From: Hemerocallis citrina
Taxonomy: Eukaryota > Streptophyta > Magnoliopsida > Asparagales > Asphodelaceae
Direction: 5' to 3'
Assembly: GCA_017893485.1 (NCBI GenBank)
Contig: CM030364.1
Span: forward strand, 247,803,122 to 247,867,121
Length of the DNA: 64,000 nt
The first letter of the stretch is position 1, and every line of letters starts with the position of its first letter. Both the position numbers and the translations under genes were made by a program. This document shows positions 786-51,739 of the stretch, in pieces. Under the pieces are notes generated by a model. That model made no database searches and was not told the origin of the DNA. It saw only the letters and a list, made by a program, of their open reading frames with translations.

Positions 786-1020
786 TGTAAAGCCCCGACT
801 TTCATATACAGAAAAATCGTAGTACACCCAGAAATCTTTTTCTTCAATTGAGTACATAAATATAATATAATATAGGAAAATTCGGAAATTTTAAGATAAA
901 TCCAAACCACTTGGATTTGATCGATTCTATGATCAATTTGAAGACGATAGCAACACGAACAACGACAATGGCTCTATGGCCGCAACTGTTCGTCGAATTC
1001 GGAAAGCGAACAAAGTGAAA

Positions 1021-1021
1021 T

Positions 1022-1052
<31 letters not shown>

Positions 1053-1215
1053 AGAGCGGGAGTAGGAGTGAGAGAGATAGTGAGAAAGCTAGAGAGAGAG
1101 AAAAAGAGCTAGAGATAGAGAGACTGAATTAGAGAGAGAGAGAAAATGTGAGAGAGAGAGACTGAGAGAGAGAATGAGAGAGAAAAATAGAGAGAAAGAG
1201 TGTGAGAGTGAGAGA
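1021..1215. repeat. Microsatellite: (GT)n(TA)n then (GA)n-rich tract
   Basis: A short GT/TA run is followed by ~150 bp of GA-rich sequence. The equivalent tract is at 15703-15900 in the other LTR. Reverse-strand Ser/Leu-rich open frames across it are low-complexity artefacts. Confidence 0.9.
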
Positions 1216-2862
1216 TATACAGTGAGGAGCTTCGGGTTTCGGAAGTTGAGTGAAGCGGCGAGATGCTCGTCAACTGCGATGGAGCTCGGAGGTGGAACTT
1301 GTAACGCCCCGAATTCCAAAATACACTGAATTCGAGATTCCACAGGATCTTTCCACTTCATTTAGTACAATTTTACAAGGAAATTTGAACTTTCCACTTT
1401 ACATCAGAGTTACATGAAAAACATTACACTTTACATTGCACAGCGGAAGTAAATTTACAACATTTAAATAAATGTACAACAATATTGAATAATCTTTAAG
1501 CATCTGTTCCTCTTTAACCTTTATCATGTCATTTACCTTACATACAAAACTATGGGTACGTCAGTTTATTCAACCGACAAACATTATACACGGCCATCCT
1601 CTCTATGCCGGAAATAGTATAACTCATTTTCCATATTTAACAAACACAAACTTGTCACATATCAAACTAAATGGAATACCCTAATGATGTCGTGTTGTGA
1701 TTGTGCACTTAGTCCTTAATGAAATTATTTATATTATATGACACTAATGCGCACTTGTTCGGATTCTATGCATCCCATACTATATAGGTCCGAGGGCAAG
1801 CCTCTTATTCGTTCTTCATCTTTGTAGGGTTCAATCCCTCGTCATGACTTAATCTACTACTGTAACTACGGTGAGTATCCTAGATGATCTATGAGTACAA
1901 GCACGTGTACCGGACCCTGCAGGGGAATCCCACGCCATGTCTTGACTCATCAAGCATGCATTCTGTGGCAATTCAGCCTCCTCCCTGAACACGATCCTCT
2001 TGCAGTCACCAAACATCCCACAAGCATTGCTAAAGTCCGATCATTACTGAGTTGTGCCCATGCCATGTCTTGACTCATCAAGCATGCATTTTGTGGCTCA
2101 CACACCCGTATCGTAAACTAACTCTCATACTTGTGTTTTTCTCTTACTTTCATCACGTCTTCACTATGTACTAATCCTTAGTTTTTATTAGAATCATGAA
2201 CAAAATCAAAGCTCTAGAGTTAGCCTCTCCACTAAACTGGACTTATTCATTCATTCAAATATGACCAACCTTGGTCTTTCATTTCAAATTTCATTTCATT
2301 TCTTTCCAAATGCCGGGAGAGACTTAGCTACTCTTTTGTTTAAATTCCAATTCACAATTTCCAAAATTGAGCGTTTCCAACTCATAAATTCATTTTCATA
2401 ATCATAATAGATTTTCTTTTTCAATAGCATGATCTCTAATTTATTCATAAGTCCATAGCCATACATGGAATTCAATTATTCCTTATGTATTTCCTCAATA
2501 AAATCACAACACTATTGAATATTCACATTTCATATTTTTCACACTATTCTCCCAATGAGAATAATTCACATCACATCATATAATTTCTATCTTTATTTCA
2601 CTTCTTTTCTAATATTTTATTTCAAGTCCGTTTGCAAAGTGCAACTTTCATAACATACAAGTGTATCACCATAATTCTAAATTATACATTTATTTTTAAA
2701 ACATACTCCCTTTAATGCAAATAATCCTCAAATTATTTTTCACAAGTCCCACATAATTTTAGGATAATAACCATATTTTTTTCATAATTTTTCAATCATA
2801 AAAAACACTAAAAAAATATTTTTTTCCCAAAGTTTAGTACTGGCCGAGCCCCATATTCGAAC

Positions 2863-3080
2863 CACCAACCATAGGGAAACCAACCCAAGGCACAGACCAC
2901 TAGGCCGAATGTTGTATGCGTTAATGAAGAGCGCTGAGAGAATTAAATGCTCTCGGCTGTAGTTATTTATTTTTTTGTCAAAAATACAAAAAGTATGGTG
3001 CTAAGGGGATTCGAACCAGCGACTCGCCAACCCACTGTAGCGATTAAGATCATGCCGACAACTTGAGCTATGCGGCCATG
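2863..3080 (-). other. Two tRNA-like (SINE-head-like) segments
   Basis: On the minus strand, 3080-2995 holds an A-box-like TAGCTCAAGTTG and a B box GGTTCGAATCC at tRNA-like spacing. Around 2912-2863 there is a second pair: GGCCTAGTGGTCTG and GGTTCGAATATG. Neither folds into a proper T-arm, so these are not functional tRNA genes. They could be heads of decayed tRNA-derived SINEs inserted in the solo LTR, or chance internal pol III boxes. Confidence 0.35.
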
Positions 3081-3349
3081 TTGTCATATTTCAACCCGTA
3101 GTCTAGTTAAATCTATCCTCTCTATTTAGTAAATATTTCGATGTTCAACAATCTCTCATTTAATTTTGCCTTTACTAAAGTTGCTGTAAATGTCCAGATT
3201 GGCTATTCTCAACATAAATTATACTCCAGTATAATAAAAATAATTTTTTCAATAATTAACACATAATTTTGCATATAATTAATTCGAATTATAAACTACC
3301 ACTACCACATTTCTTTCACTACAACACAGAAGTTATTCGCAGGCATTTT

Positions 3350-3870
3350 TTTAGACAAACACCGGCGGTTTTTACGCCGGTGAAATATTCACCGACATTT
3401 TTATAAACGCCGGTACAAATGCCGCCGAATCGAGCGTCGCGGAAAGATAGGTGCATTCACCGGCGTTTCTGCTGGACGCCGGTATTTCTTGAAAATATAC
3501 CGGCGACCAGACAAACGCCGGTATATGCGAATTTCTGAGTGTCGTTCTTTCCCCCAATATACATTCACCGGCGGTCACATACCGCCGGTATATATCTTTC
3601 ACCGGCATTTGTAGAAACGCCGGTGTATGTCCAATATGTACCAGCGGTCATAGAACGCCGGTGTATGCTTGTTTCTGAGCGCCCTATTTCCCTAATTACA
3701 ATCACCGGCGTGTTATAAAACACCGGTATATAGCTATTCACCGGCGTTTTATGACGCGCCGCTATAGATATATGGGTACACCGGCGTGCGTGGAAATGCC
3801 TCCCTAACGAAGTTTTCAATTAAACAATTAGATACACCGGCGTTCTATGAAACGCTGGTGTATCCTCGTT
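3350..3870. repeat. Left subterminal CACCGGCG repeats of CACTA 1
   Basis: More than a dozen copies of CACCGGCGTTT or its complement, often as facing pairs separated by a few bases so that each pair forms a hairpin. By analogy with TNPA sites of En/Spm these are inferred binding sites for a transposase supplied elsewhere. Confidence 0.85.
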
Positions 3871-3879
3871 GGTTTTTCC

Positions 3880-4670
3880 TGCTCCAAATTTTCATTCGAT
3901 TTCAATTCACAATTTCATTTAAAAAACCTGTAAACTAATTCACAACTGATTCAACCAATTTTAGGCATATTAATGCGCAAATCACAACCAAACACAAGAA
4001 TTAATTAAGATAATAAAGTTTCACACATAGTCCATTAATCGTCCAAATTCACCGCATAATTAACGGTGTCATAATTAACAAATACAGTAATTAACATCCC
4101 AAATATCTCAACAATTACTTAAAACAACAATCTAGAACATAACAACAACAAGGACAACATAACAACAACAACTAGAGTAGGCCGACCACAGATCCATACC
4201 CCTCGAGTAGCTTCAGTGCTGATCATCAGAATTTCCTTCATCTGGGTGACCGCTCTATGAAAAAAAAACAATAATTTAGTTCAACAGGAATCCAAATATA
4301 AGAAAAATAAGAAAAATAAAAAGGGGCTCATATCAAGTGTAGTTTTAAGGAACTGTCATCGTGGAAGGAAACCAAATATAGAAGCCAGAAATGGAAACAG
4401 AGAATGGTAGAGAATGAGGATACACCAGGCTAACATAGCGGCATTTTTCTCATCTCTCTCTCATCCCTTCTTTCCCTTCAGCACACGCACACAAAGAGAC
4501 ATCAGCAACAACAGCAAGAGAGACAAGAACAACAATAATAATAAATTATTATAAACGAGATGTCTCTATATGGGTTTCCAGATCTCCACTCGAGCCCTCT
4601 CTTTCTAATCACGGCCCAATTAAGAACATAGACGACAGCCACTAAACAATCCAATCACAGCCTAATCAAA
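3880..4670. other. CACTA 1 interior, no gene
   Basis: AT-rich sequence between the left subterminal repeats and the tandem array. No open frame with recognisable similarity; 4260-4560 has A-rich and CA/AAC-rich stretches only. Confidence 0.6.
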
Positions 4671-4674
4671 ATTT

Positions 4675-7665
4675 GCCATCCTGAATCTTAAATCTTCAGA
4701 TGCATGAATTCAGCTTCTTTAACAGTAAAAGAAAATGAAAATTTCCAGAATCTAAGCATATATGTTTCTCTTTTAATTCTTCATCCCAACTAAATCATGA
4801 TGTTTGAGGCTCCAAAATAAACCTGCACAAGGTTTGTTCGACCTAATTCTTGTACAGATTTGGAGGATTTTGGTATACAGCTAGCATCCTTAGTTGACAG
4901 TTAACCCATTTTGGTAAAAAAATCATGCTAAGATGATAATCAGATGCATGCGATCAGTTTCTTTAACAGTAAAAGGAAACGAAAACTTGCCAATAGTATC
5001 TAAGCATATATGTTTCTCCATTAATTCTTCATCCCAACTAAACCATGATGTTTGTGGCTCCAAAAGTAACCTGCACAAGGTTTGTTCAGCCCAATTCTTG
5101 TACAGATTTGGAGGATTTTGGTATACATACAGCATCCTTAGTTGACAGTGAACCCATTTTGGTAAAATAATCATGCTAAGATGGCAATCAGATGCATGAA
5201 TTCAGCTTCTTTAATAGTAAAAGAAAATGAAAATTTCCAGTATCTAAGCATATATGTTCGTTTATTAATTCTTCATCCCAACTAAATCATGATGTTTGTG
5301 GCTCCAAAAGAAACCTGCACAAGGTTTGTTCCGCCCAATTCTTGTACAGATTTGGAGGATTTTGGTATACAGCTAGCATACTTAGATGACAGTCAACCCA
5401 TTTTGGTAAAAAAATCATGCTAAGAAGGCAATCAGATGCATGAACTCAGCTTCTTTAACAGTAAAAGAAAATGAAAATTTCCAGTATCTAAGCATATATG
5501 TTTCTCCATTAATTATTCATCCCAACTAAACCATTGATGTTTGTGGCTCCAAAATAAGGCTGCACAAGGTTTGTTCCGCCCAATTTTTGTACAGATTTGG
5601 AGGATTTTGGTATACATACAGCATCCTTAGTTGACAGTGAACCCATTTTGGTAAAAAAATCATGCTAAGATGACAATCAGATGCATGCAATCAGTTTCTT
5701 TAACAGTAAAAGGAAATGAAAATTTTCAGTATCTAAGCATATATGTTTGTCTATTAATTCTTGATCCCAACTAAATCATGATGTTTGTGGCTCCAAAAGA
5801 AACCTGCACAAGGTTTGTTCAGCCCAATTCTTGTACAGATTTGGAGGATTTTGGTATACATACAGCATCCTTAGTTGACAGTGAACCCATTTTGGTAAAA
5901 AAATCATGCTAAGATGACAATCAGATGCATGCGATCAGTTTTTTTAACAGTAAAAGAAAATGAAAATTTCCAGTATCTAAGCATATATGTTTGTCTATTA
6001 ATTCTTCATCCCAACTAGACCATTGATGTTTGTGGCTCCAAAAGAAACCTGCACAAGGTTTGTTCCGCCCAATTCTTGTACAGATTTGGAGGATTTTGGT
6101 ATACATACAACATCCTTAGTTGACAGTGAACCCATTTTGGTAAAAAAATCATGCTAAGATGGCAATCAGATGTATGAATTCAGCTTCTTTAACAGTAAAA
6201 GAAAATGAAAATTTCCAGTATCTAAGCATATATGTTTGTCTATTAATTCTTCATCCCAACTAAATCATGATGTTTGTGGCTCCAAAAGAAACCTGCACAA
6301 GGTTTGTTCCGCCCAATTCTTGTACAGATTTGGAGGATTTTGGTATACATACAGCATCCTTAGTTGATAGTGAACCCATTTTGGTAAAAAAGTCATGCTA
6401 AGAAGGCAATCAGATGCATGAATTCAGTTTCTTTAACAGTAAAAGAAAATGAAAATTTCCAGTATCTAAGCATATATGTTTCTCTATTAATTCTTCATCC
6501 CAACTAAACCATTGATGTTTGTGGCTCCAAAATAAACCTGCACAAGGTTTGTTCCGCCCAATTCTTGTACAGATTTGGAGGATTTTGGTATACATACAAC
6601 ATCCTTAGTTGACAGTGAACCCACTTTGGTAAAAAAAATCATGCTAAGATGGCAATCAGATGCATGAATTCAGTTTCTTTAACAGTAAAAGAAAATGAAA
6701 ATTTCCTGTATCTAAGCATATATGTTTCTCTATTAATTCTTCATCCCAACTAAATCATGATGTTTGTGGCTCCAAAATATACCTGCACAAGGTTTGTTCA
6801 GCCCAATTCTTGTACAGATTTGGAGGATTTTGGTATACATACAGCATCCTTAGTTGACAGTGAACCCATTTTGGTAAAAAAATCATGCTAAGAAGGCAAT
6901 CAGATGCATGAATTCAGTTTCTTTAACAGTAAAAGAAAATAAAAATTTCCAGTATCTAAGCATATATGTTTCTCTATTAATTCTTCATCCCAACTAAACC
7001 ATTGATATTTGTGGCTCCAAAATAAACCTGCACAAGGTTTGTTCCGCCCAATTCTTGTATAGATTTGGAGGATTTTGGTATACATATAGCATCCTTAGTT
7101 GACAGTGAACCCATTTTGGTAAAAAAATCATGCTAAGAAGGCAATCAGATGCATGAATTCAGTTTCTTTAACAGTAAAAGAAAATGAAATTTTTCAGTAT
7201 CTAAGCATATATGTTTCTCTATTAATTCTTCATCCCAACTAAACTATTGATGTTTGTGGCTCCAAAATAAACCTGCACAAGGTTTGTTCCGCCCAATTCT
7301 TGTACAGATTTGGAGGATTTTGGTATACATACAGCATCCTTAGTTGACAGTGAACCCACTTTGGTAAAAAAAATCATGCTAAGATGGCAATCAGATGCAT
7401 GAATTCAGTTTCTTTAACAGTAAAAGAAAATGAAAATTTCTAGTATCTAAGCATATATGTTTCTTTATTTATTCTTCATCCCAACTAAATCATGATGTTT
7501 GTGGCTCCAAAATAAACCTATACAAGGTTTGTTCAGCCTAATTCTTGTACAGATTTGGAGGATTTTGGTATACAGCCAGCATCCTTAGTTGACAGTTAAC
7601 CCATTTTGGTAAAAAAATCATGCTAAGATGACAATCAGATGCATGAATTCAGCATCTTTGACAGT
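4675..7665 (+). repeat. About 12 x 245-bp tandem repeat inside CACTA 1
   Basis: The unit contains AATCAGATGCATGAATTCAG and ends near GACCCATTTTGGTAAAAAAATC with regular ~245-bp spacing (for example 5921, 6410 and 6900 are two units apart). Units differ by scattered substitutions, and similarities between alternate units suggest expansion partly as a ~490-bp dimer. The repeated ~61-residue minus-strand open frames are by-products of the array. Confidence 0.93.
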
Positions 7666-7964
7666 GAAAAGGAGAGAAATCAAGAGAAATTACCGAAGAG
7701 AGAGAGGGGGGCGACGAGCGGTGGCATAGGAGATAGAGAGAGAGAGCGGGGCGACGAGCGGTGGTTTTCGATCGCAAATTCACCGCGAAATAGAGAGAGG
7801 GAGGAGGGAAATCGAATTGGGCTGTCGAAGATGACGAAGGGACGAAGGCGAAGCGCGAGAAATAGAGAGTGGGAGGAGGGAAAACGAAGGCGGCGAAATT
7901 AGGTTTGGGAAATTAGCGAGCGAAATGTTAGGGTTCGCGGGGATTTATCTCAGTTAATTCACTG

Positions 7965-8185
7965 GCGTTTGAAATTACAAACGCCGGTGAATGTATCTAT
8001 ATATTCCCCGGTGTGTGTTATTAAAATGCCGGTGAATACTACCATCCACCGGCGTTTCTAAATAAACCGCCGGTGAATATCATGAATCCCCAGCGTTTTA
8101 TAGAGGCCACCGGTGTATAACCATCTAATCTGACGCCCCATTCCTGGTCACTCCCTACCCCGGCCCGAATGGTGAAATGCCGAGG
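7965..8185. repeat. Right subterminal CACCGGCG repeats of CACTA 1
   Basis: Around eight forward or reverse copies of the CACCGGCG motif before the terminal inverted repeat, several mutated (for example CCCCGGTG and CCCAGCG). Confidence 0.85.
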
Positions 8186-9305
8186 AATATACGCGGTAAA
8201 TCGCGCACGTGTTGTAGTGTTTTTCGACATTTCTTATCAAGTTTAACAACCCTAATCTTTTTATTAGCAATCAATTCTCTGTTTTTAATCATTTCCCAAA
8301 CATACAATCTATATCTTAATTCATCCATCACAACATTATCACAAAAAGTTCATTTAAGCACATAAAGTAATATTGCCAATCTACTAACTCTTGTATATAA
8401 TTTTTAATGTTAATAATGAAGTTTTCTTTACACAATCCATAGCCATAATCATTTCGCACACAACTTGAATTTTAATAATAGAACCACATACAATTGCATA
8501 TCAACATTTCAATCAATCAATAGGTCATTTTTCCAATTAAATGTGTACTCTTATTAGTCTTTTTCATGCATCATTCTTTCCATTCAAATCTAGCATGCTT
8601 CCTAATTAGAAATATAGAAAATTTACCTACCTTAATTGGAGAGACTACATTTAACAACACCTCCTAAACTAATGTCCTTGCAAAAGAGCGATCCTCCTCC
8701 TTGATGCGCGCACACAAGCCTCCACCAAGCCAAACCGAGAGCTCCTATTGATGCCAGCCTTGGTGCAAGCACAAACCCCTCACAAACTCTCAATCTTTTA
8801 CTCACTTGTATACTACTAAATAATGTATTTTAAACTATAGGTTTGGAGGAAATAATAAGCACAAGAATAACTAGGCTAGGGGGGGGGGGGGGTATTTATA
8901 CTAAAAATCTAGGAAAATGGAAGGCTAAGATTAACTTAGGAGTTAGGATTAAAAGGCTAGGATTCAAGGAGGAGTTACAATAACCAACCATGATCAAGTA
9001 ACCACCACCCATGACTCCACTCAAATTTTCCCTTTTCCCTCCAAAGCTCCAACCGGCCATGCTCATCATGTGCATTTTGCACGTGTACGTGCAATGCACG
9101 TGCATGCAACTTGGTCTCCAAAAATTTGTACATTATATTTTGCATAAAAATAATCTTTAAAATGTATTCTACATTACAAGTTGTATTTAAAAATAAAATA
9201 GCTCATGGGCTTTAGTATATGGGTCAAAATAATAAATTGAATTAAATTTGGGCTTTAAGAAGAAAGGCTTTTGTCTAATTGAAAAAGGGCTTTATATGAA
9301 AATAA

Positions 9306-10120
9306 TTAAAGAGCACATATATAAATATCTATACTCATCATAATGAAAATAATTACCAAAACATTGCACGTGCACACTACGTACAAAATAAAATAATTTT
9401 CATTAGATGAAAATCGGGGCATTACAGAACTACGAGGTTGAGAGGCGGGGGTTGTGGCGATAGTGGAGAGGAGCTTCGGCGAGAGGTGATAATGGCAACG
9501 AGTTGGAGCGGAACTCAGGGTGATGGTTGACGGGGCGATGGCAAGGAGGTTGATGAGGAGCTTCGGAGTTTCGAGTTTTCGAGGTGGAGAGCGCAGTGAG
9601 GAGGAGAGGTCTAGCGGTGGCGGAAGTGATTGGCGATGGAAGCGATAGAGCTTGTGGCGGTGGTGGCAGCGAGCGGGGAATTGACGGCGATAATGTGGTG
9701 GAGGCAGTGGGGCAATGGTGATGTGGCGATCAAGAGCTCGGAGGGAGCTCAGTGGTGGCTCATTGGCGAGGAGGCAGTGGGCGACGAGGAGGCTGGCAAA
9801 GAGCTTTGGTGTTTCGTAGTGGGGACAGGAAGGCAGGTGAGGGTGGTGAAGATGATGGTGGTGAGGCTGCTGACGACAACTGTGAGGAGTGGGAGGTGGT
9901 GACAACGAGAGGAGAGGATCTGTGAGTGGGGGTGGCAGCAATGGCGAGAGCTTCGGCGATGATGGTGTAGGTGGCAATGACGATGGCGATGGTGATGGCG
10001 ACAGTGACGAGGATGAGGGTGAAGGTTGGAGCTTGGTGATGGCGATGGTGGAGAGCTGCGGTGGCGGAAGGCAGTAGCGAGGAGTGTTTGGGGTTGGGTT
10101 GAAGAAGATCGAAGAAAGAA
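9306..10120. other. End of solo LTR and G-rich LTR segment, no gene
   Basis: From 9432 the outer LTR resumes with a GGN/GA-rich segment that is open in several frames on both strands. The same segment recurs at 15975-16690, and similar G-rich segments occur in the TGTCAC solo LTRs (37550-38500, 40050-40740). Compositional openness in unrelated frames argues against a protein gene. Confidence 0.7.
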
Positions 10121-10122
10121 GA

Positions 10123-10126
<4 letters not shown>

Positions 10127-10195
<69 letters not shown>

Positions 10196-10211
10196 CTTAT
10201 ATATATATAAG

Positions 10212-10265
<54 letters not shown>
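10127..10265. repeat. (TA)n microsatellite with central hairpin
   Basis: Two long TA runs separated by a short inverted sequence (TTTCTTATATATATATAAGAAA). It is strongly expanded relative to the short TA run at 16722-16740 in the sister LTR. Confidence 0.95.
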
Positions 10266-10268
<3 letters not shown>

Positions 10269-11024
10269 AAAGAGAGAGATTGTGACTGAGTGAGAGAGAG
10301 TGTGTGATTGAGTGAGTGTAGGAATGTATTTATAGGGGTGTTAAGGTGTTGCAGAGTGAGAAGATGAGTGTGTTTTAGGGTAGAGTATACTAGATAGTAG
10401 GGGTATAGGAGGAGGTGTGTGCTGTGGAGTGGGAAGGCGGAGACAGTTGAGGTAAGAGCATAGTAAAATAATAGGAAGTAAGCAGAGGGTTTAGATGGAG
10501 GTGGAATTAAATGAGGTTGGGGTTAGGGAGGGAATTAGGATTAGGGATTAGGATTAAGGGACAACTTAGATTTAAAATAACTTACAACAAAAAATCAGAT
10601 TGAAAAACTGCAAGATGTTTTGGATTTTAGACTCGATGGGCTACGATTTTTATGTATAAAGTTTCTCAATTTCAATGAAGAGAACTAGGTCAAATTCTCA
10701 GTGCAAGATCAAGAAATTTAAAGATAGCAAAGTTAAATATTCGATAATACGATAAATCAACGGTCTTATACTGAATCAAAAACCCGACATGATAAGGAAA
10801 CTAAATCAATTAAATCGAAAAATTTAGAATGGGTCAGAAAATATTTGGGTTGGGTTCAAATAAGAGATCAAAATGAGTTCGAAAGATTGGGAAGATATTT
10901 ATAAAATAAAAATACAAAATACGAAAAATATAATATTACGGATATTATCCGTAACAGTACAAAATACACGTGTATAACACATGCAGGACAAAATTGTCGT
11001 AGTTTAATTTTATGGGGTGTTACA

Positions 11025-11406
11025 CCCTCCCCCCCCCCCCCCCCCAAAGTTCTGTCATCAGAACTTAATAGGGTGCGAATTTGTAACAAGAACACTCTAC
11101 TAATATAATTGATGGAGTCCTTAATTACAAAAGAGTATATTGAAATCCATAAGTTCATCTTGTAACAGAAAGAAAAGATTAAGAAAAAATGTCTGTTTAT
11201 TAAGGGGAACATTGAAAAGAACAAGCCACAATCAAGTGATTTAATAGTACCTTATCGTGTGCTACGATGTTCAACCACTTTAACATCCACATCGACATCA
11301 GTCACTCCTAAACCAAAACACTAAGAAAACCCAATACAAAATTTTGCACAAACAACTGGAAGACTTAACAAATTAACACCCGGGCTCCAAATCTGAACCC
11401 CCACTA
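11025..11406. other. 3' untranslated part of the LOG-carrying element
   Basis: Sequence between the LTR edge and the LOG stop codon: a C-rich run at 11025-11045, then AT-rich DNA without an open frame of note. In minus-strand reading this is where the polypurine tract should lie; the G-run next to the LTR is the best candidate. Confidence 0.5.
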
Positions 11407-12123
11407 CTACTGGGCTCCCCCAACATCCCAATTCAGTTGGGTCACCAGCTCGTCCCGCTCCGGCACATACTCTTCCAATTTTCTGATTAGTTCTTTGGGT
11501 GATGGAGCTGAAACCAAGATGCGTCTGGCCTTACTGGATACAAACTCTTCGGCCACAGTCGAATCTATGAAGGATAAAAGCGAGTCGTAATATCCCTCAA
11601 CATTCAAAAGACCTATTGACTTTCTGTGGACCCCCAGTTGAGCCCAAGTGAGCACCTCAAACAATTCTTCCAGTGTTCCATAACCTCCGGGCAAGGCATC
11701 AACAATGCGACACATCTCAGCTTTCCTCTCGTACATGTTAGAGACAACTCTAACCTCTCATACATTCCCTCCAGTAATCTCCTTTGGCATCAGCGCCTTA
11801 GGAATCACTCCCAAAGTATGTTGGCCACCGGCATGAACGGTGTCAGAGAAACGGCCCATCAATCCTATGCTTCCACCGCCATAGGCCAAATTGATATTCC
11901 TCTCCACTAGCTCCTTGCCGAGCTCGATAGCAGCTTCTTGGTAACTAGCTCTCTTGCCAGAACTACTGCCACAAAATACGCAGATCCTGCCGAATCTCGA
12001 TGAAGATGATGAAGATGAAGAAAGCTTCATCTTCTTTCCCGCTTCACCTTCTTCTTCCATCGATTTTCTTTTCATTCCTACTTCTCTTTCCGCTGATTGT
12101 AGATCTCTCCTATTTTCTTCCAT
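11407..12123 (-). pseudogene. LOG-like: Processed LOG gene copy (cytokinin phosphoribohydrolase), one stop codon
   Basis: LOG enzymes release active cytokinin bases from their riboside 5'-monophosphates. Reading from the ATG at 12123, the copy spans a full family-length frame (~238 codons). It has a Lys/Glu/Ser-rich leader of ~45 residues, then [41 protein letters not shown] (catalytic Arg), [10 protein letters not shown] (signature with catalytic Glu) and [15 protein letters not shown], ending near [10 protein letters not shown]. There are no introns, although plant LOG genes are normally split into several exons, so this is a cDNA-derived copy. It is broken by an in-frame TGA at 11758-11760 (GGA to TGA likely) and lacks about three residues before PGGYGT. 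It sits in the same orientation as the host retrotransposon, between protease and 3' LTR, as expected for a transduced transcript. Identity is confident; function is unlikely. Confidence 0.9.
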
Positions 12124-12129
12124 TGCCAA

Positions 12130-12640
12130 GCCGATCTCTTTCTCTTCTTTTTCCGCCGCTTCGTTCTTTCTTTTTGCTCCGCTGCTTCTCGTTCTTTCTC
12201 TTCTCCGAGGCTCGCTTTCGAGTTCTCTTGCTCGTTCTTTTCTTCCTCTTTCTTCTGCGGCTTCCTTCTTTCTTCTTCGGCTTCTTTTCCGCTGATTCCT
12301 CTCTTTCTCTTCCTCTTTCTTTCTTTCTTTCTTTCTTTTTCTTCCTCCTTTTCTTGACTTATCTTCTACTTCTTTTATTTCTTCTTCCTCTCATTAATTC
12401 CCCCTACAACAACTCATACAAAAATTTTCACTTCAATCCCCATAAATTCCAAATTTTTATTTCAATCCTAAACTCCAAAATTTATTGATATAACTAACCC
12501 GAAAAGTCATAATCAACGATTACTAGAAAATTAGGAAAATTATATCCTTCGTCCAATCCTGATATCACAACTGGCGTAATATTGGTCAGTAATCAGCATC
12601 TCTCATGAAGGCGTGGCTACAGCCAAAATTCTACCGAGAA
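12130..12640. other. CT-rich spacer upstream of the LOG copy
   Basis: On the plus strand 12040-12390 is extremely CT-rich (TTTCTT repeats). On the minus strand this is the GA-rich leader of the LOG copy and may be part of its captured 5' UTR. 12400-12640 is ordinary AT-rich sequence. The plus-strand Ser/Phe/Leu-rich frames are artefacts. Confidence 0.6.
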
Positions 12641-13070
12641 AATCATAGGCTCAACACTCATCTCATTTGCAAATTCGGGAGATACAGGAGTATATGAAGA
12701 TCCAGTATCAAATAAAACATTGGTCTTTATTCCATTGATCAAGAGATGTCTTGTTACATCAAAAGATTAACAATACATCATTATTATTGCAAAGCCTTAG
12801 TTAAATAAAACACCACTCATTTCCCTTGAATTGATCCGTAGCGGTGATGACATTCTCTGGATCTTCTACACAATGTTTTGTGAGTGCCAAATCTCGCCTG
12901 TGGTTGTATAGCTTTTCCTCCTGATTTGCGGGCTCTTGGTTTGACTCTTTATGCTGATATTCGGGACAGTAGGATTTGATGTGGCCCCTTTTGCCACAGC
13001 TGAAGCATGTGCTTTCCTTCGGGCAATTAGACCTGTAGTGCCCGGCCTATCCACAATTATAACATCTCAT
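12640..13070 (-). pseudogene. gag zinc knuckles and protease fragment
   Basis: Minus-strand translation near 13065-12960 gives two CCHC knuckles, C-x2-C-x4-H-x4-C, the second intact (CFSCGKRGHIKSYC). The first is interrupted by TAG at 13047-13049 in the position of a likely Gln codon (CAG to TAG). Further on, around 12740-12640, is a retroviral-type aspartic protease core with VLFDTGSS. Nothing of RT or integrase follows before the LOG copy begins. Together these place the element with Ty3/gypsy retrotransposons. Confidence 0.75.
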
Positions 13071-13357
13071 TACCTTTTTGGTGATCCACCACTATTTTCT
13101 CCAGTTAATTTGAGCTTCTGAGCTGATGAGTGTTTTTCGTAGTGGTTTGATGCTAATGGTCTTTTTCCTTTGTTCCCATTGTTCCTCTTGTCCTTCTATA
13201 ACGGGTAGTGTTCCATGTATGACTCAGTGACAGCAGTCCTGAGCTCTGTTCGCAATTCGACCACTTCTTCATGTAGATAACTATGAGCTCGATTGGATTT
13301 CCTCTTTTCTCCTACGAGCATGCTCGTGAGTTCATTGAATTGCCGTGCCGCTCAAAA

Positions 13358-13699
13358 CTAGATTCTCCTTAGAATCTTGACCTCTGTCTCTAGGGTTGTA
13401 ATGTGCCGCTGGTCTTCCAATCTTTGTCCCCTTAGTTGGCCTGTCCTCCACTGATATCGGTAGATTTGTCGTTGAATTTCGACCATCTTATGATCATTCC
13501 TGCTCAGGGCTAAAGGGACACCCGAAGATTCGTCTGAAGAGTCAACTGGAGGTGGAGTAAGTGGGTGCATCTTTTGGGGTTCTTCTTCCTCTTCCAGTTC
13601 TTCCGCAGGATCTTCTTCTTCAGGTTCTTCCTCCTCAGGATCTTCCTCCTCTTCTTCATTGAAGAGCTCATCTTCCATAGGATTTTGGTCATCCTCCAT
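13358..13699 (-). CDS. Acidic coiled-coil gag N-terminus, partial
   Basis: Open frame of 113 codons starting at ATG 13699. The first ~50 residues are almost all Asp/Glu/Pro; the rest (KMVEIQRQIYRYQWRTGQLR...) looks like a coiled coil. It precedes the zinc knuckles, but the usual retrotransposon gag core domain is not seen between them, so the capsid region appears lost. It starts ~175 bp from the PBS, the normal place for a gag start. It ends at a stop and is probably truncated. Confidence 0.6.
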   Translation of the reverse strand: MEDDQNPMEDELFNEEEEEDPEEEEPEEEDPAEELEEEEEPQKMHPLTPPPVDSSDESSGVPLALSRNDHKMVEIQRQIYRYQWRTGQLRGQRLEDQRHITTLETEVKILRRI

Positions 13700-13858
13700 C
13701 CTACAGAAGAGAGAGGGAAAAACCAGTTCACATAGGATATCATAAATGCTAAGCTAAAAAATGATCATAGCATTCACGGCCCCAAACAAAAAAAAACACA
13801 TCTAGTGTCATCCTAAGCCCATTTCCAATACTATGTTTAGTACAACAAATTGAAGTTA

Positions 13859-13870
13859 GCTCTGATACCA
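13859..13870 (-). other. Primer-binding site (initiator tRNA-Met)
   Basis: On the minus strand TGGTATCAGAGC lies three bases inside the right LTR. This matches the 3' end complement of plant initiator tRNA-Met and fixes the direction of the element. Confidence 0.9.
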
Positions 13871-13873
13871 CTC

Positions 13874-15697
13874 TGTAACGTCCCGACTTCCATACACAGG
13901 AAAATTGTAGCACACCCAGAAATATTTTCCTTCAATTGAGTACATAAACATAATATAATATAGGAAAATACGGAAATCTTAATATAAATCCAAACCTCTT
14001 GGATTAATAAGATGATGGGCTCAGGATGTTACACCTCTATGCCTAAACTCCAGGTACTCTTACCTGCATAACACAATCTGTGGGTTCGTCAGTATGTGAG
14101 GTTGATGGTAAGAATCACAACAGCTTTAACTAACTCCAAAAATAACATAAAAACATACATAGTATAATAGAAATAAAACTGAAATCAGTAAATGTAAACA
14201 TGAAATAGTCAAATATACAATGTCATATGAGCGTGTGTATAAACAATTTATTAAAAAATTAAACATATATTTATCAAGAAAACATGCACAATCCAAATAT
14301 GCTCTTTTAATACACGCTTATTAGGAACGATATGTCGCTCATATAGCATATTTTCCGAATGCAAGTTACTAGCATTTCTTTTCATTACAGGATTCAATCC
14401 CGCATTTATGCAATACATACTCATGTATTCTACACTGTTTCTGATATTTATCTAGTGACTAGTGAGGTTTCATTTGTTCGGTCCAATTCCGTTACTGCAG
14501 TCGGTAGTGGTCATACCAGAACCCTATGGTATTTCTCCACTCCTGAGTATCCATAATGATGCACAGCCCTGGTAGTCTCTCCCCACTCCCGGTTTTATAT
14601 ATTCCACCCCGCCCGAACCCCAACGGTCTTTCTCCACTCCTAAGCATCCATAATGGTGCCCAGCCCCGGTGGTCTCTCTCCGCTTCCGGACCTCACTAAA
14701 AGTTATCATGAATATAAGACGCCCTGGTAGGCATTTTCTTCTCCTCCTCATTTGTATCCTATAACATAGATCATCAACGGACACTTATGGGTCCATCCCC
14801 TAAGTTCCGATAGGAGTTTACAGCCTATACATCTGCACCCCCGTTCTTAACACTGGATCCCAGAAATTAACAATCGAGACAACTCCGCACGTGTCCCCTT
14901 GACAGGTGAATACAACTTCCAATAATTATATAAATTCCAATACTTGTTCGAAAATTAATTTCTTAGTCTCATATGAAACCTCAATGAGTCTACTACAACA
15001 TTGTAGTTAAGAACCTCTAGTTTCAACCGAATTAAATCTGTCTAAAATCATTTATAAGATAGTAGGTTCAGATTCCAGAAATCATAGCTCTTGCTACTTT
15101 TAGAAATCACAGAAAGCCACACTTCTTGGAAATTGGATTTCTTAGACTCAAAAGAAAATAAGTATGATATTTAGCCAGAATTATGAAATAAATTCTGTTT
15201 CATTTCTAAATCAGTAATGTATTCGGAGGTTATTAAAATACCAAACGACATCCAACAATTATGAAATTTTGAGGAGATGTTGTACACACATACATGATAT
15301 GCATACAAAAGTTTCAGTCTCATAATCCATGTATTTAAATAGAAACGATTTTATGAAGTGAGATCAAATTCTGGACAGAATTATAATAACGTTTCTAAGA
15401 TAATAATCATCTCACAAATTAATTAACACTCATAATCAAACAACATTTATACACAATCTAAGCACGATTACTCAATTTATTAAATTATCTAGCATGCACA
15501 CAACCTATAATTTTAAATAGAGTTGGTTCAAGTTGTTACCCACTTTTTATTTTTTGGATTTGATCGATTCTACGATCAATTTGAAGATGATAGCAACACG
15601 AACAACGACAATGACTCTACGGGCCACAACTGTTCGTCGAATTCGGGAAGCGAACGAAGTGAAAATTGTATTAATATATATAGAGATATATACATGT

Positions 15698-15747
<50 letters not shown>

Positions 15748-17504
15748 AGCGAGAGTAGGAGAGAGAGAGGTAGAGAGAAAGCTAGAGAGAGAGAAAAAGA
15801 GCGAGAGAGAGAGACTGACTTAGAGAGAGAGAGAGAGACTGAGAGAGAGAACGAGAGATAGAGTGAGAGAGAAAAATAAAGAGAAAGAGTGAGAGAGTGA
15901 GAGATATACAGTGAGGAGCTTCGGGTTTCGGAAGTTGAGTGCAGCGGTGAGATGCTTGTCGACTGCGATGGAGCTCGGAAGTGGAGCTACGAGGTTGCGC
16001 AGGTTGTGGCGATGGTGGAGGGGAGCTTTGGCAGGAGGTGATAACGGAGACGAGTTGGAGTGGAGCTCAAGGTGATGGTTGACGAGGCGATGGCGAGGAG
16101 GTTGATGAGGAGATTCTAAGTTTCGAGTTATCAAGGTGGAGAGCACAGCGAGGAGGAGAGGTCCAGCAGTGGCGGAGGTGATTGGCAATGGAAGTGGCGA
16201 AGCTTGCTGTGGTGGTGACAGCAAGAGGGGAGTTGAAGGCGACAATGTGATGGAGGCCGTGGGGTGATGGTGATGTGGCGATCAAGAGCTCAGAGGGAGC
16301 TCAGTGGTGGCTCAATGGCAAGGAGGTAGTGAGCGACGTGGTGGCTGGCAAGGAGCTTCATTATTTTGAAGTGGGGACATGAAAGCAGGTGATAGTGGTG
16401 AAGATGATGGTGGTGTGGGTGCTGATAGCAGCAGCAAGGAGTGGGAGGCGGTGACAGCGAGAGGAGAGGAGCTGCGAGTGGGGGTGGCAGCAATGGCAAA
16501 AGCTTCGGCAATGAATGCGCAGGTGGCAATGGCGATGGCGATGGCAATGGTGATGGCGACAGTGACGAGGATGAGGGTGAAGGTTGGAGCTTGGTGATGA
16601 CGATGGTGGCAAGCTGCGGTGGCAGGAGGCTATAGCAAGGAGTGTTTTGGGTTGGGTTTTGCCTTCGGTGAAGAAACGAAGAGGAAGAAGATCGAAGAAA
16701 GATGAAGACAGTGGGCGGGTGACTATATATATATATATATCTATATAGGGGTGTGAGGGTGCTACTGCGTGAGAGAGAGTGTGTGATTGAGTGGGTGTAG
16801 GAATGTATTTATAGGGGAGTGAGGATGCTGCTGAGTGAGAAGATGAGTGTGTTTTAGGGTAGAGTATAGTAGATAGTAGGGTTATAGGAGGAGATGTGTG
16901 CTGTGGAGTGTGAAGGAGGAGAGGGTTGAGGAAAGAGCATAGTAAAATAATTGGGAGTAGGCAGTTGGTTTAGATGGAGGTGGAATTAAATGAGGTTGGG
17001 GTTACGGTGGGAATTAGGATTAGGGATTAGGATTAAGGGACAACTTAGATTTAAAATAACTTACAACCTATAAATTGGATTGAGAAACCGCAAGATGTTC
17101 TGGATTCTAAACTCGATGGGCTACGATTTTCATGTATAAAATTTCTCAATTTCAATGAAGAGAACTAGGTTAAATTCTCAGTGTAATGTCAAGAAATTTA
17201 TAGGTAGCAAAGTTGAATATTCGATAATACGATAAATCAACAGTCTTATGCTGAATCAAAAACACGGCATGATAAGGAGACTGAATTAATTAAATCAACA
17301 AATTTAGAATGGGTCAGAAAATATTTGGGTTGGTATCAAATAAGCAATTAAAATGAATTCGAATGATCGGAAAGATATTTATAAAATAGAAATACAAAAT
17401 ACGAAAAATATAATATTATGGATATTATCCCTAACGGTAAAAAATACACGTGTATAACACGTGCAGGGTAAAATTGTCATAGTTCAATTTTGCGGGGTAT
17501 TACA
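13874..17504 (-). repeat. 5' LTR of the LOG-carrying element
   Basis: Starts TGTAACGTCCCGACTTCC and ends GGGGTATTACA, 3631 bp, uninterrupted. It keeps the 1555-bp segment (13999-15553) missing in the other LTR. Features: (TA)n at 15703-15743, GA-rich tract to ~15900, G-rich segment 15960-16690, then a ~180-bp block at 17080-17260 that also occurs at 10590-10780 and, more divergently, at 37195-37400 and 39665-39860 in the TGTCAC LTRs. The shared block suggests the two families are related. Confidence 0.9.
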
Positions 17505-17772
17505 TAAAGCCCCCTTTCCAAATAAATAGTTTCAAATTACTCTGTTGCAAATTTTCGCTCACACAAAATTTCATGTATGGGAGGATGGATATGATGTTGG
17601 ACTTCTATTAGTACCCATTGTGAAAGTGAGACCCCAAAAGAATATCTGAACGAATACACATGTGAAGCTATTTTGATAAGGATTAGAGGAAGAATTTGAA
17701 TTCGATGATATTTATCAAGACATATTTAAGACATCGTACTTAATAGTATACAAACCCTCTCGTTGAGACGAA
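17505..17772 (+). repeat. Flank repeat A, right copy
   Basis: Direct repeat of 503-785, starting TAAAGCCCCCTTTCC and ending GTTGAGACGAA, just before the copia target duplication. Confidence 0.75.
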
Positions 17773-19508: not shown

Positions 19509-20219
19509 TGTAGCGCCCCGAATTTCTAATATAATATCTTAGAAAATACGTGGCACAATCCCAGCATCAACTTCAATGTAACATTAAACACAACCAACAC
19601 CAATGAAATTTTTAACTTTTATTACAATAATCTTTTACATAGCACAGCGGAATTTAAAACATCTCAAATCATAATTTTCTTTTATTCACAACACAATATT
19701 TTTACAACACTGCTTTACAAATTTACACAAAACTCTATTAAATCAATTTATCTCAAAACTAACTCAAGCATCCACACCTCCAAACTCTAAGTAACAACCT
19801 GCAACACATGAGGCTAGAGATGATCCCTAACCCCCAAAACTAGAGGGGTCAGCCATAAATGGTGTGAGTGACATAAAAGCAAACAACATAAATAAACATT
19901 AAGTAAGGATTCTTAAACAACATGTAGTGAACCAAAATACATAAAATATGAAGTAGCAAGAAATGAAAACAACAAGTGATACTAAACCAAGTGTCAAGTG
20001 TAGAAAACAGGAAAACCACGTGCATAAAACCGAGTCAGGAAAACACAATTTCTATATGCGGACTCTCTAATGCGTACTTGTCGAAGTCTATGCATCCCAC
20101 TCTACATAGGTTCGGTGCAAGCCCTGAACGTCTTCACTTCATAGGGTTCAATCCCCCGCTATGCAACTAATCCTATCACGATGGCTACTACGAGATAAAG
20201 ATAAACTGTAAGCATTAGC

Positions 20220-20500
20220 CAATGCCCGATAATTCCGGAGATAAATCCCACACCATAGGTATTTTACCTGGATAATTCCGGAGATCATCCCACACCGAAA
20301 CATTGACACATCATCACACAAATACCACATGTGTGTCGCCTCGACCCCGATAATTCCGGAGATCAATCCCACACCACAAGTAATTACCTGGATAATTCCG
20401 GAGATATATCCCACACTACAGGTAATTTACCTGGATAATTCCGGAGATAGATCCCACACCACAAGTAAGTTACTTGGATAATTCCGGAGATTAAATCCCA
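20220..20500 (+). repeat. Tandem ~40-bp repeat in the 3' LTR
   Basis: About six to seven units with core GATAATTCCGGAGAT followed by ATCCCACACCA. The same array is at 31065-31345 in the 5' LTR. The homologous place in the nested solo LTR instead holds a ~101-bp unit (23690-24110). Confidence 0.9.
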
Positions 20501-20889
20501 CACCGAAAGCCATACTGAGGTACATAACTCATGTTCCCATTCATCATATCACCACTAGTGCCTGTCCTTATCATTTTTGGGTTATTTAATTACTTAACAA
20601 ATCTCCTAGAGTTGGTGTACCCTACAAGACTTAACTCAACAACTGAACAACTAAAATGCCTCAACAGGCCTCAACAAAAGAACTCAAACGCCGGTATACT
20701 AGGGTCACACACACCCTCTAGAGACTCAAACTCAAATATCTCAACCAATCTTACTTCATAAACTGCTCAACTTAACATCTTGAAAACATAAGTTCAATAG
20801 GAGATACGGCGTAAGTAGTTATAGATCAAAATATCTAGAGAATAAACCATTTGGAAGAACCTTCATAAATATAAAAATACATCAGTACC

Positions 20890-21160
20890 AGTCGACTGTA
20901 GTAAGCATAAGTCGACTGTCCAGAAAGAATGTTCCATGATTTTAAGAAAATAAGCTGAGTGTTATAAGTTGACTTATAAAAGTCATAAGTCGACTTACCA
21001 GAGAAAAAAAATCTACGATAACTTTGAAAAATAAATTCTAAGAGTGCCAGTCGACTGAAAAGGGTCTAAGTCGACTGTCCAGAACGGATTTTCAAGAAAC
21101 TAAATATCATAGCAGCTGGGTCGTACCAGTCGACTGAAAGGTCTGCCAGTCGACTGTCGG
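20890..21160. repeat. GTCGAC palindrome cluster in the 3' LTR
   Basis: Eight sites of the form (C/A)AGTCGACT(G/T), mostly in pairs ~15-20 bp apart; one is mutated to GTTGAC. Duplicated in the 5' LTR at 31730-32000. Confidence 0.88.
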
Positions 21161-22093
21161 CCTACAGACTGCTTAGTTTTGGTTGTACATGATAATCAAA
21201 ATTAGAGTTTTCTAAAGAAATCATTGTTTACTAAAATAATTTGTAATCCGATAAAAACGACAATCTCAAAGTATCCTCAGTTTGGATACATTCCACAAAT
21301 CAACCAATTTCTCAAAACTTAAATTCTCATGTTCTAAATTCTAATTCTTCCATTAGGGTTTCTCAATACTGAATTTCTTCCACAACTCATAACCAAAAAT
21401 CTGATTTGTAATCACAAGATCCAGATGTTCATCCATCCGATCCCTTATTGCATAATCATACTCAAATCTTAAACATGCTTTCTAGCAATACAAACCTATA
21501 AACCAAGATCCACTAAACATTCATAGATTTCACATACATAATACAAACAACAACTATTGCATCGCTCACATACAAAATATACTAAATAAACAAACATGTC
21601 GAAACAAACTGTAGAACCCTGTATTTTCAAATATTATTTTAAATATTTGAAAATGAATTTAAATGATTTTCTGGAGATTTAATAAATATTTTCTAAAAGA
21701 TTTATCTTTTTACACGTGCAGAACACGTGCAACTACTTTCTTGAGAAGTTCAAAAGTCAAGTTTTCTTCAAAAAAAAATCATTATTTAATATTTGGGATT
21801 TATTTAGTATTTTTCCAGATTTTTCTGAAATTAATTGGATCTATTTGCAATTTTTGAGAAAAGAAGGACCTTTTAGCAAATTTGTCGTTTTTAGGGGTTA
21901 AAATGCAAAATCTATTTTCTGGATGTTTTGAACAGTAATGGTTGAGATTAATGAGTATATTTTACTTTTAAATCCTAATTTAAATGATTTTTTATTGAGT
22001 TTCCAGGAATAGAACTATATATATGTAAAGTTATATTTTGGAAGGACTATTTTGCAAATGCATTTCCAAAACCCTAAATCTTGATTTCCGGCC

Positions 22094-24110: not shown

Positions 24111-25379
24111 GTTGTTTAGACAGGGTACATTTGTATGTACCGGATGTATTCTTGGTTTTATGCTTGTGTTTTCCAGTTTTCCTACACTTGACACTTAGGC
24201 TAACTTCACTTGTTGTTTTCATTTCATGATGTTTTCATGCTTTACATCTTTTGTTATTTCTCATTCATTTATCCTTGTTGTTAATACATGCTGTTGATGA
24301 CTTTATGTTTTATGATTAAATTATGTTGTTTTGTTTTTATATCACTCACACCATTTATGGCTGACCCCTTTAGTTTGGGGGTTAGGGATCATCTCTAACC
24401 TCATGTGTTACAGGTTGTTGCTTAGAGTCTGGAGGCCTGGATGCTTGAGTTAGTTTTGAGATAAACTGATGTAATAGTGCTTTGTGTAAATTTGTGTAAA
24501 AAGAAGTATTGTGAAAAGAAAGTTGTAATTCAAGGTGTTTGTAATTCCGCTGTGTTTGAAAAAGATTGTTGTAATAAAAGTTTGGAATAAAATTATTTGT
24601 GTTTTTGGGCTATGTGTACTATTACATTGAAGTTGATGCTGGGATTGTACCACGTATTTTCTAAGTTATTAAATTAGAAATTTGGGGCGCTACACAAACA
24701 ACGAAACAATCACTCACGTAAATCAAAACAATAACCACATTTACATTATTCACATAAAGCAAACAACAAAACAAAGTTCATGTCACTCACCTTTAGAAAC
24801 GACGAGATCCAACATTAAAACCTCTCCTTTTGCGAGATCCAAACCTCCTCTTGAGATCCCAAGAAAAATCACAAAATTCTATATTGTGCAGCGAATGACG
24901 GCTGCATTTTCTTTTAAATACCCGGGATAAGAAGTTTAGGGTTTTCCAAACACTTTTGCAAAATGATCCCTTCAAAATACAACTTCATATATATAGCTCT
25001 ATTCTTGGAGATTCAATAAAATTCATTTAAATTAGGATTTAAAAGAAAAATATACTCATTAATCTCAACCGGTACTATTCAAAACGTCCAGAAAGTAAAT
25101 TTTACATTTTAACCCCTAAAATGACAAATTTGCAAAAAGATCATTCTTTTCTCAAAATTTGCAAATAGATCCAATTAATTTCAGAAAAATCTGGAAAAAT
25201 TATAAATAAATCCCAAATATTAAATAATGATTTTTCATGAAGAAAACTTTACTTTGGATGCACGTGTTTTGCACGTGTAAAAAAAATATTTTCAGAAAAT
25301 ATTTATAATTTCTCCAAAAATCATTTTATTTCATTTATAACCTTTAAAATAATATTTAGAAAAAATACGGGGTTCTACA

Positions 25380-30215: not shown

Positions 30216-30353
30216 GTCCACACCTAGGTTATTTTTATGCCGTGTTTATTATTACTATTGAAGCATGCTCTGATACCAATCTTTGTCCACACCTAGGTTA
30301 TTTTTATGCTGTGTTTATTATTACTATTGAAGCATGCTCTGATACCAATCTCT
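30216..30353 (-). repeat. Tandem 69-bp duplication spanning the primer-binding site
   Basis: Two copies, 69 bp apart, of the segment from GTCCACACCTAGG to CTCTGATACCAATCT, each containing a complete primer-binding site (30267-30278 and 30336-30347 on the minus strand). The copy next to the LTR is the normal one. Confidence 0.92.
30336..30347 (-). other. Primer-binding site of the chromovirus
   Basis: TGGTATCAGAGC on the minus strand, five bases inside the 5' LTR, complementary to initiator tRNA-Met. Confidence 0.92.
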
Positions 30354-48105: not shown

Positions 48106-48209
48106 AGGAGAGGAGGAAAAAGTTTTCAGCTCAGAAGATAGGAAAAGAGTTATGAGTTTGAAAAATGGTGACTGAATGATGTCAATATTTATAAGACAAC
48201 CCACTTTAT

Positions 48210-48570
48210 GAGAGAATCCAATGTCACAGGAGAAGACGAACGACTTGACTGATGAAGACAGGGTATCCAATGCCACAGGAGAAGACGAACGACTTGACTG
48301 ATGAAGACAGGGTATCCAATGCCACAGGAGAAGACAAACGACTTGACTGATGAAGACAGGGTATCCAATGCCACAGGAGAAGACAAACGACTAGACTGAT
48401 GAAGACAGGGTATCCAATGCCACAGGAGAAGTCAAACGACTTGACTGATGAAGACAGGGTATCCAATGCCACAGGAGAAGACAAATGACTTGACTGATGA
48501 AGACAGGGTATCCAATGCCACAGGAAAAGACAAACGACTTGACTTATGAAGACAGGGTATCCAATGCCAA
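48210..48570. repeat. 7 x 49-bp tandem repeat between the divergent Harbinger genes
   Basis: Unit: GATGAAGACAGGGTATCCAA then TGCCACAGGAGAAGACAAACGACTTGACT in order. Copies are nearly identical, so the array is recent. It lies between the two start codons (48105 and 48704), in the expected bidirectional promoter. Confidence 0.93.
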
Positions 48571-48703
48571 TTAATGCATTTACAGAGAATCCAATGCTGG
48601 TTATGTAACTCAATATCTATATAAGCAACATATAACCATGAATACTACATCCTTCATCCATAATCTATTCATATAAGACGACCAAATCCAACATTCTCTA
48701 ACA

Positions 48704-51109: not shown

Positions 51110-51739
51110 TTGAAACTTTTACCAAAATGACCCACTTTTTGAAAGTATTTACCAAGCCGACCAACTTTAGAAAGTATTTATCAAAATGACCCACTCGCTA
51201 TCTCAGATAGCCAGTTTGACGAAAATAACCTCGCTGTCTGAGATAGTGAGTGTATGTTGCGTTGTTAAAACGTGAAGAAAATTTTCAAGTTTAGACTTGC
51301 TATCTCATATAGCGAGTTTGGTGAAAACAACATCGCTATCTGAGATAGCGAGTGTATATTGAGATGTTTCTCCATCACTTGGAGAAAAACTTGAAGAAAA
51401 ATACTAAGTTTAGACTCGCTATCTCAGATAGCGAGTGTGTTTATACCACACTCGCTAACTAAGACAGCGAATGTTGGGAAGTTTTTAAAGACTCGCTCGC
51501 TGTTTTGCTATTACACTATTGCATGTAATATTGTTGTTCAACTGTTATGACATGCAATAATAATAACTATAGCTGTTGTTTGGTAATAGCTGCAAAGCTT
51601 TACACTCTTCAATTGACTATATATTTGTTTCTTGCAACAGTGGTACGAACTTAATAAGTTGTATAATTAGCATTATTAGTTGCAGTTGAAAATGATAGGA
51701 TGAGGTAAGTAAGAACTAACCAAAAATACACTCAACTAA

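Follow-up and report, generated by a model that had tools for sequence, protein, structure and literature searches.

Is a hormone-activating gene, found broken inside a retrotransposon, a chance passenger of that element or the relic of a gene that a mobile lineage has maintained? The question is raised by a 64,000-nucleotide stretch of the Hemerocallis citrina genome (hereafter the window; C7:247803122-247867121 in an assembly of 3.78 Gb, the contigs C1 to C11 of which each exceed 200 Mb). It holds a processed coding sequence of LONELY GUY (LOG), a cytokinin-activating enzyme. The original prediction had placed this sequence inside an LTR element lacking pol, on the same strand as the element and between a protease remnant and the 3' LTR, and in all these respects it was borne out. 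The element is laid out as follows.

786..17504, minus strand: whole LTR element including a nested insertion, delimited by LTR homology blocks; flanks CAAAG (781-785) and TAAAG (17505-17509) match at 4 of 5 positions
13874..17504, minus strand: 5' LTR, from self-comparison; its part 14006-15553 is not represented in the 3' LTR
13859..13870, minus strand: primer binding site (PBS) TGGTATCAGAGC, read from the sequence
13358..13753, minus strand: acidic open reading frame, a gag remnant by position, without Pfam match (ORF list, Pfam scan)
12801..13046, minus strand: gag remnant with CCHC zinc knuckle (Pfam PF00098, E=1.2e-6)
12620..12740, limits approximate, minus strand: protease remnant with DTGSS at about 12709 (translation)
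12124..12392, minus strand: GA-rich leader 5' of LOG, common to the young copies L033 and L065 (alignment)
11407..12123, minus strand: processed, broken LOG coding sequence (translation, Arabidopsis LOG3 match, Pfam)
11758..11760, minus strand: in-frame TGA in LOG (translation)
11025..11045, minus strand: G-run polypurine tract, read from the sequence
9427..11024, minus strand: 3' LTR, first part (LTR homology)
1300..9426, no strand assigned: nested TG...CA insertion dividing the 3' LTR, with target duplication GAACT at 1295-1299 and 9427-9431
786..1299, minus strand: 3' LTR, last part (LTR homology)

The window LOG spans 239 codons, stops counted, and translation of 11407-12123 confirmed that it is broken by a single in-frame TGA and, besides, by a 3-residue gap. 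Its two parts match Arabidopsis LOG3 (2a33) with E=8e-42 and 5e-34, the 3' part is recognized by the Pfam model Lysine_decarbox (E=4.7e-29), and Tyr replaces the active-site His97 (CgLOG numbering). The limits proposed earlier for the 5' LTR (13874-17504) stand, while the far end of the element, where the split 3' LTR reaches 786, had been missed. Pfam revealed no pol domain among the scanned ORFs of the element, which has no reverse transcriptase (RT); it appears Gypsy-like solely from the CCHC motif of its gag remnant, the DTGS motif of its protease remnant and its PBS. The PBS is presumably of the initiator-Met tRNA type. The two LTRs differ by a K2P distance of 0.144 over 1515 aligned sites (the longer part of the 3' LTR being used), and the insertion is therefore old, about 5.5 million years at a substitution rate of 1.3e-8 per site per year.

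Several other repeats were observed in the window. The sole direct self-matches longer than 80 bp within the 8.1-kb nested insertion (1300-9426) form a tandem array of 13 copies of about 245-bp units at 4554-7792, and the insertion may be a solo LTR of great length that contains a satellite-like array. The segments 19509-21304 and 30353-32145, about 10.84 kb apart, are 97-100% identical and are accompanied, both in the interval and on their outer sides, by further direct partial copies (24857-25156 and 32610-32909) as well as inverted ones; together they probably represent an LTR element of recent origin that includes nested or inverted pieces. A palindrome like ACTCGCTATCTGAGATAGCGAGT underlies repeats at 51190-51489 and 52935-53514, which occur in inverted order too and adjoin a 45-bp tandem array at about 51848-52477, and one more tandem array, with 49-bp spacing, lies at 48162-48618.

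Complete elements carrying LOG were found elsewhere in the genome. Three copies, L031, L032 and L033, were read with their 10-kb surroundings and proved to be complete LTR elements with TG...CA LTR pairs and target site duplications CACAT, TAACC and TGCTT; their LTRs measure 2.8-2.9 kb and their internal regions 1.93 kb, arranged in the order LTR-PBS-LOG-PPT-LTR, with the same PBS (TGGTATCAGAGC) after the 5' LTR and a purine tract before the 3' LTR. With gaps excluded, the LTR pairs show 3 differences in 2811 aligned sites (L031), 2 in 2923 (L032) and 18 in 2822 (L033), a range of 0.07-0.64%, and these elements are therefore young. Their internal regions encode LOG (248 aa stop to stop), a frame of 86-96 aa near the PBS and GA-rich low-complexity frames of up to 175 aa. 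The Pfam scan of the internal ORFs of L002, which is the same copy as L031, gave no match besides LOG, the sole gene with a Pfam match in the three elements. A fourth young copy, L065, has an internal region of 2.66 kb and bears, in addition, a gag remnant ORF of 271 aa with a zinc knuckle, which is the same frame in extended form. No pol domain was present in the scanned ORFs of L002/L031 and L065. Thus, the young LOG carriers are non-autonomous LTR retrotransposons.

The relation of the window element to these copies proved to be less direct than had been expected. LOG copies are abundant, but the young ones belong to a sister subfamily, the LTRs of which can be aligned with the window LTRs only in short stretches (about 96-183 bp, with identities of about 76-82%). 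The window LOG together with its leader is about 75% identical to L033 and L065 over 1.1 kb. The internal region of the window element matches that of another copy, L068, the LOG of which is also broken, with 83% identity over 11046-12036 and 12250-13864, so the window element has at least one relative. The window copy itself is old and dead and belongs to a subfamily that is sister to the young copies, the synonymous divergence between the two subfamilies being about 0.66. Because the leader is common to the window and young copies compared, the window LOG did not arrive separately. As a separate observation, an LTR block of about 85-240 bp recurs at 17055-17290 (in the window LTR), 37190-37428, 39667-39751 and at 1628-1805 of L031 (in the young LTRs), as if LTR modules had been exchanged between families.

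Of the 1025 candidates from the genome-wide PF03641 profile search, 150 were scored. All 150 scored matches are intronless and hold the LOG domain in one frame over at least positions 1-130 of 131, and 146 of them are stop-free inside the domain. This domain-only score overstates intactness because 5 of 30 whole coding sequences fetched from the same list (L007, L014, L019, L027 and L030) turned out to be broken. Still, the expectation of an intact LOG in other copies was realized in the remaining 25 of these 30 protein-picked copies, which are free of stops and frameshifts over the whole coding sequence, and in 17 of 22 copies picked by their leader (see below). The second LOG search scored 150 of 883 candidates, seven of which are exons of intron-bearing LOG genes (L035-L038, L040, L058 and L060). 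Both match lists, minus these seven host exons, give at least 236 distinct places with an element-type LOG, a count taken from the lists, with a minority of the places inspected individually.

Nine pairs of neighbouring LOG copies lie on the same strand within 9 kb of each other, five of them spaced by 4731-4807 bp and four by 3785-7219 bp. Head-to-tail copies of the former spacing class were seen at C10:31369233, 31374040 and 31378847, and at C1:110132722/110137460, C2:295290962/295295737 and C4:238855890/238860621. In the C10 locus (L034) the spacing equals one LTR plus one internal region, and the identity between the two units is 99.9% over 5119 bases. Six matches to the LOG pattern, all AGGAGGTTATGGAACACTTGAGGAGTT, fall within about 120 kb at C7:247222507-247341770, about 0.5 Mb before the window; they form a local cluster of related copies, which perhaps arose via segmental duplication.

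The gag remnant is followed 1.6-2.3 kb downstream by a listed LOG in 48 of its 150 best matches. As a control for decay, 48 of the 150 best gag matches are stop-free, which carries little weight, as a listed LOG is near no more than 48 of these 150 and the gag and LOG lists were ranked by different queries. An autonomous partner was sought via this gag remnant only, a search that would miss a partner with a different gag; none was found, the longest open frame among the best 150 of 26499 candidates being 343 aa.

The protein encoded by the young elements has the features of a LOG enzyme. The L031 LOG scores 205.7 bits against TIGR00730 (cut-off 96.35) and 161.5 bits against PF03641 (cut-off 27) and possesses the PGGxGTxxE motif; against NF058542, the NCBIfam equivalog for LOG, it scores 132, under the cut-off of 300. 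In the Corynebacterium LOG, according to the available part of PMC4979012, Arg99 and Glu122 are the proposed catalytic residues, with AMP contacts also described, and Met96, His97, Lys100, Glu125 and Trp129 form the prenyl pocket. We checked twelve active-site positions, the roles of which were taken from that part of the article, with the position of Ser19 being our own mapping. Of the 17 intact leader-picked copies, 16 retain all twelve, the exception being L072 with Asp in place of Glu121; among the 44 protein-picked copies, 40 retain them and four are changed.

The origin of the gene was traced through the splice-junction pattern search, which revealed 29 places in the genome; two of them, L067 (C1) and L068, were fetched with regard to the parent. 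The C1 gene consists of seven exons separated by six GT-AG introns, encodes a 240-aa product and is 79% identical to the L031 LOG over 233 codons. Alignment confirmed the predicted exact intron loss, as all six introns are missing in the element. A naturally intronless parent lying in the same flanking DNA would have spoken against retrotransposon capture, and the nearest host LOG, with its six introns and its location on C1, is not of this kind. The C1 gene and the element have features in common, such as IHSKPV and EYVPE-DELVT-LNWDV, that were not seen in the corresponding exons read from the remaining host LOGs. The C2 place carries the same 27 junction bases as the C1 gene, and the exact parent may be this place or another paralogue rather than the C1 gene itself. 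No captured UTR was found in the comparison with the host gene, similarity being confined to the coding sequence (L031 4612-5248), with other short matches at E of 0.019-0.79. In the protein tree of 21 sequences, 15 element LOGs, including that of the window, formed one clade with ultrafast bootstrap of 100, to which the C1 host gene was sister (support 99); the window and L068 LOGs paired at 99, and support inside the young family was mostly low. Independent capture in the window and young families was ruled out by this single-clade tree. Apparently, LOG was captured once, from a spliced mRNA of a host LOG gene, as the tree and alignments suggest.

Selection on the captured gene was assessed in copies obtained with 720 noncoding leader bases as the query, chosen so that copies were not picked for LOG. 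This search scored 40 of 2284 candidates, each over at least 718 of the 720 positions, and LOG regions were obtained for 22 of the 40, a sample skewed to L031-like, i.e., young, copies. LOG was present in all 22, being intact in 17, interrupted by a stop in four and frameshifted in one. Mean dN was 0.030 and dS 0.164 (dN/dS 0.18 over 231 pairs), the codon bootstrap for the 17 intact copies gave 0.12-0.27, and the window LOG against these 17 gave dN 0.090, dS 0.655 and dN/dS 0.14, with the reservation that dN/dS between close copies is a rough measure. Variants found in at least two leader-picked copies comprise 38 nonsynonymous, 58 synonymous and one stop, and private ones 49, 29 and two, the nonsynonymous to synonymous ratios of the two classes being different (Fisher p=0.0036). 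Relative to a neutral expectation of 71% nonsynonymous changes (about 2.5:1, interpolated for the observed transition bias), shared variants depart toward silent changes (p=2e-10), with no significant difference for the private ones (p=0.11). The same pattern emerged in the 44 protein-picked copies, with 83:95 for shared against 123:52 for private variants (p=9e-6); this set comprises 55 rows minus 11, namely repeats (L022, L023, L042, L048, L062 and REF031), gapped or degraded copies (L044, L046, L056 and L059) and the window LOG as outgroup (WIN). As private changes are not distinguishable from the neutral ratio, most single copies are not under selection.

Divergence along the element agrees with this picture. 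In the 44 copies it amounts to 0.1125 at LOG third positions, 0.072 in the leader and 0.0455 at first plus second positions; since the latter vary less than the leader and the third positions more, the constraint lies on the protein, in replicating lineages. Variants common to at least five copies number 20, 13 and 49 at codon positions 1, 2 and 3, and private ones 59, 56 and 65. Leader divergence correlates with that of LOG third positions at a Spearman coefficient of 0.49; for the 3' tail, in 47 copies, the coefficient is 0.44. This moderate correlation means that the elements recombine or the measures are noisy. These sequence data suggest that LOG is an accessory, protein-coding gene which the mobile lineage has maintained, and not a chance passenger.

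Considering these facts, we regard the following account as a whole as likely. An ancestor in a Gypsy-like lineage captured a spliced host LOG mRNA, apparently once. The lineage shed pol, and gag either largely or entirely, and retained LOG while multiplying, as is seen in the four young copies read with long flanks. Its mobilization would presumably depend on enzymes of an autonomous relative, of which the gag-based search found none. According to the frequency-class test, selection appears to keep the LOG protein in replicating lineages and not in each landed copy. Most likely, the LTR-driven enzyme would release active cytokinin bases from 5'-monophosphate ribosides where the element is expressed, and the released cytokinin may favour division or meristem fate of the host cells and thereby the passage of the element to progeny, this benefit being our guess.

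Other readings of the same data were weighed against this account. If LOG merely hitch-hiked, with the silent bias inherited through repeated captures of a selected host gene, one would expect the partial correlation of leader and LOG divergence, and also the mostly silent per-site divergence of the host C1 gene from the element LOG (dN 0.133, dS 0.833); yet the compared element LOGs form one clade with many changes absent from the host gene, the silent bias is seen among the element copies themselves, and leader and tail are common to the copies, so that we hold such passive carriage to be quite improbable. Conservation might also be an artefact of choosing copies for their resemblance to LOG, as both LOG searches select by protein score; the leader-picked sample nevertheless agrees in LOG presence, intactness and dN/dS, and private variants stand at the neutral ratio even in the protein-picked set, which makes this reading very unlikely. 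Equally little credence is given to selection at the level of the plant, which would employ the many copies as additional LOG genes: many ORFs are intact and extra dosage is conceivable, but private changes, most of which postdate insertion, show no departure from the neutral ratio. That the LOG DNA is useful as nucleic acid, for packaging or spacing, would suit a non-autonomous element in need of cis signals; given the 3-periodicity of the shared variants and third positions more variable than the leader, it seems hardly credible.

The rival that we rate highest, though still as unlikely, concedes selection on the protein and assigns to it a different job, namely, action on ordinary nucleotide monophosphates with pool- or RNA-related effects in replication, or a structural role, instead of cytokinin activation. 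CgLOG does possess phosphoribohydrolase activity with AMP, as stated in the available part of PMC4979012, and dimeric proteins are recruitable. On the other hand, the prenyl-pocket residues His97, Glu125 and Trp129 are kept with the proposed catalytic pair.

The original prediction considered a LOG passenger unusual. A LOG-type domain in plant LTR elements had, however, already been published: the accessible part of PMC9289625, citing Steinbauerova et al. (2011), describes consensus LTR elements with the LOG-family domain YgdH from two Citrus species (Citrus sinensis and C. clementina) and, without filter, from Populus, all non-canonical domains of that screen being in Gypsy-type consensuses. 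Our elements resemble these by description; the screen began from RT, whereas the four young copies have no recognizable RT, and RT-less elements would be missed because RT was its marker. On LOG, the same part of that article contains no selection test, parental gene or copy survey. Gypsy elements of Phalaenopsis with an ORF for an AlkB m6A demethylase (PMC9289625, same part) likewise have a host-type enzyme fixed as an extra ORF; there the enzyme was added to a 25-kb element, whereas here LOG is the remainder. Bs1 of maize, as presented in the available part of PMC13317346, is also an LTR element with transduced host coding sequence, but it comprises segments of three genes with no full-length ORF, in contrast to one full-length selected ORF in many copies. 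Our literature search, covering titles and the beginnings of abstracts, did not turn up any description of a pol-less LTR element with a LOG gene under selection; the retrieved text of PMC13317346 mentions neither 'hormone' nor 'phytohormone', and the main text of PMC7264820 and PMC11963269, as retrieved, neither 'cytokinin' nor 'lysine'.

Plant LTR elements often hold captured genes in fragmentary form; here a full-length host enzyme is apparently selected as a gene of the element, in many copies, some of them very young. Should the enzyme be active, a mobile element would produce the activating enzyme of a growth hormone, and whether plant retrotransposons manipulate host development could be tested in a single species. 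In practice, unless the elements are masked, counts of LOG genes in such genomes could be too high. Among known systems, the TR-GAG and LARD-type elements of plants are non-autonomous, with long LTRs and without pol, as are ours, and differ in that the protein kept here is a host-derived enzyme. Acutely transforming retroviruses are replication-defective and carry a captured growth gene; in both cases a processed host growth-control gene replaces replication genes and a helper is required, presumably so in ours. These viruses are infectious and have a growth effect, whereas the LOG element involves no infection and its effect on growth is putative. It is possible, albeit doubtful, that by this analogy the LOG elements are a plant counterpart of the oncogene-carrying defective retroviruses, that is, helper-dependent elements that would steer host cell growth or fate, and thereby improve their own passage to the germ line, via their one maintained protein, a hormone-activating enzyme selected over a long span.
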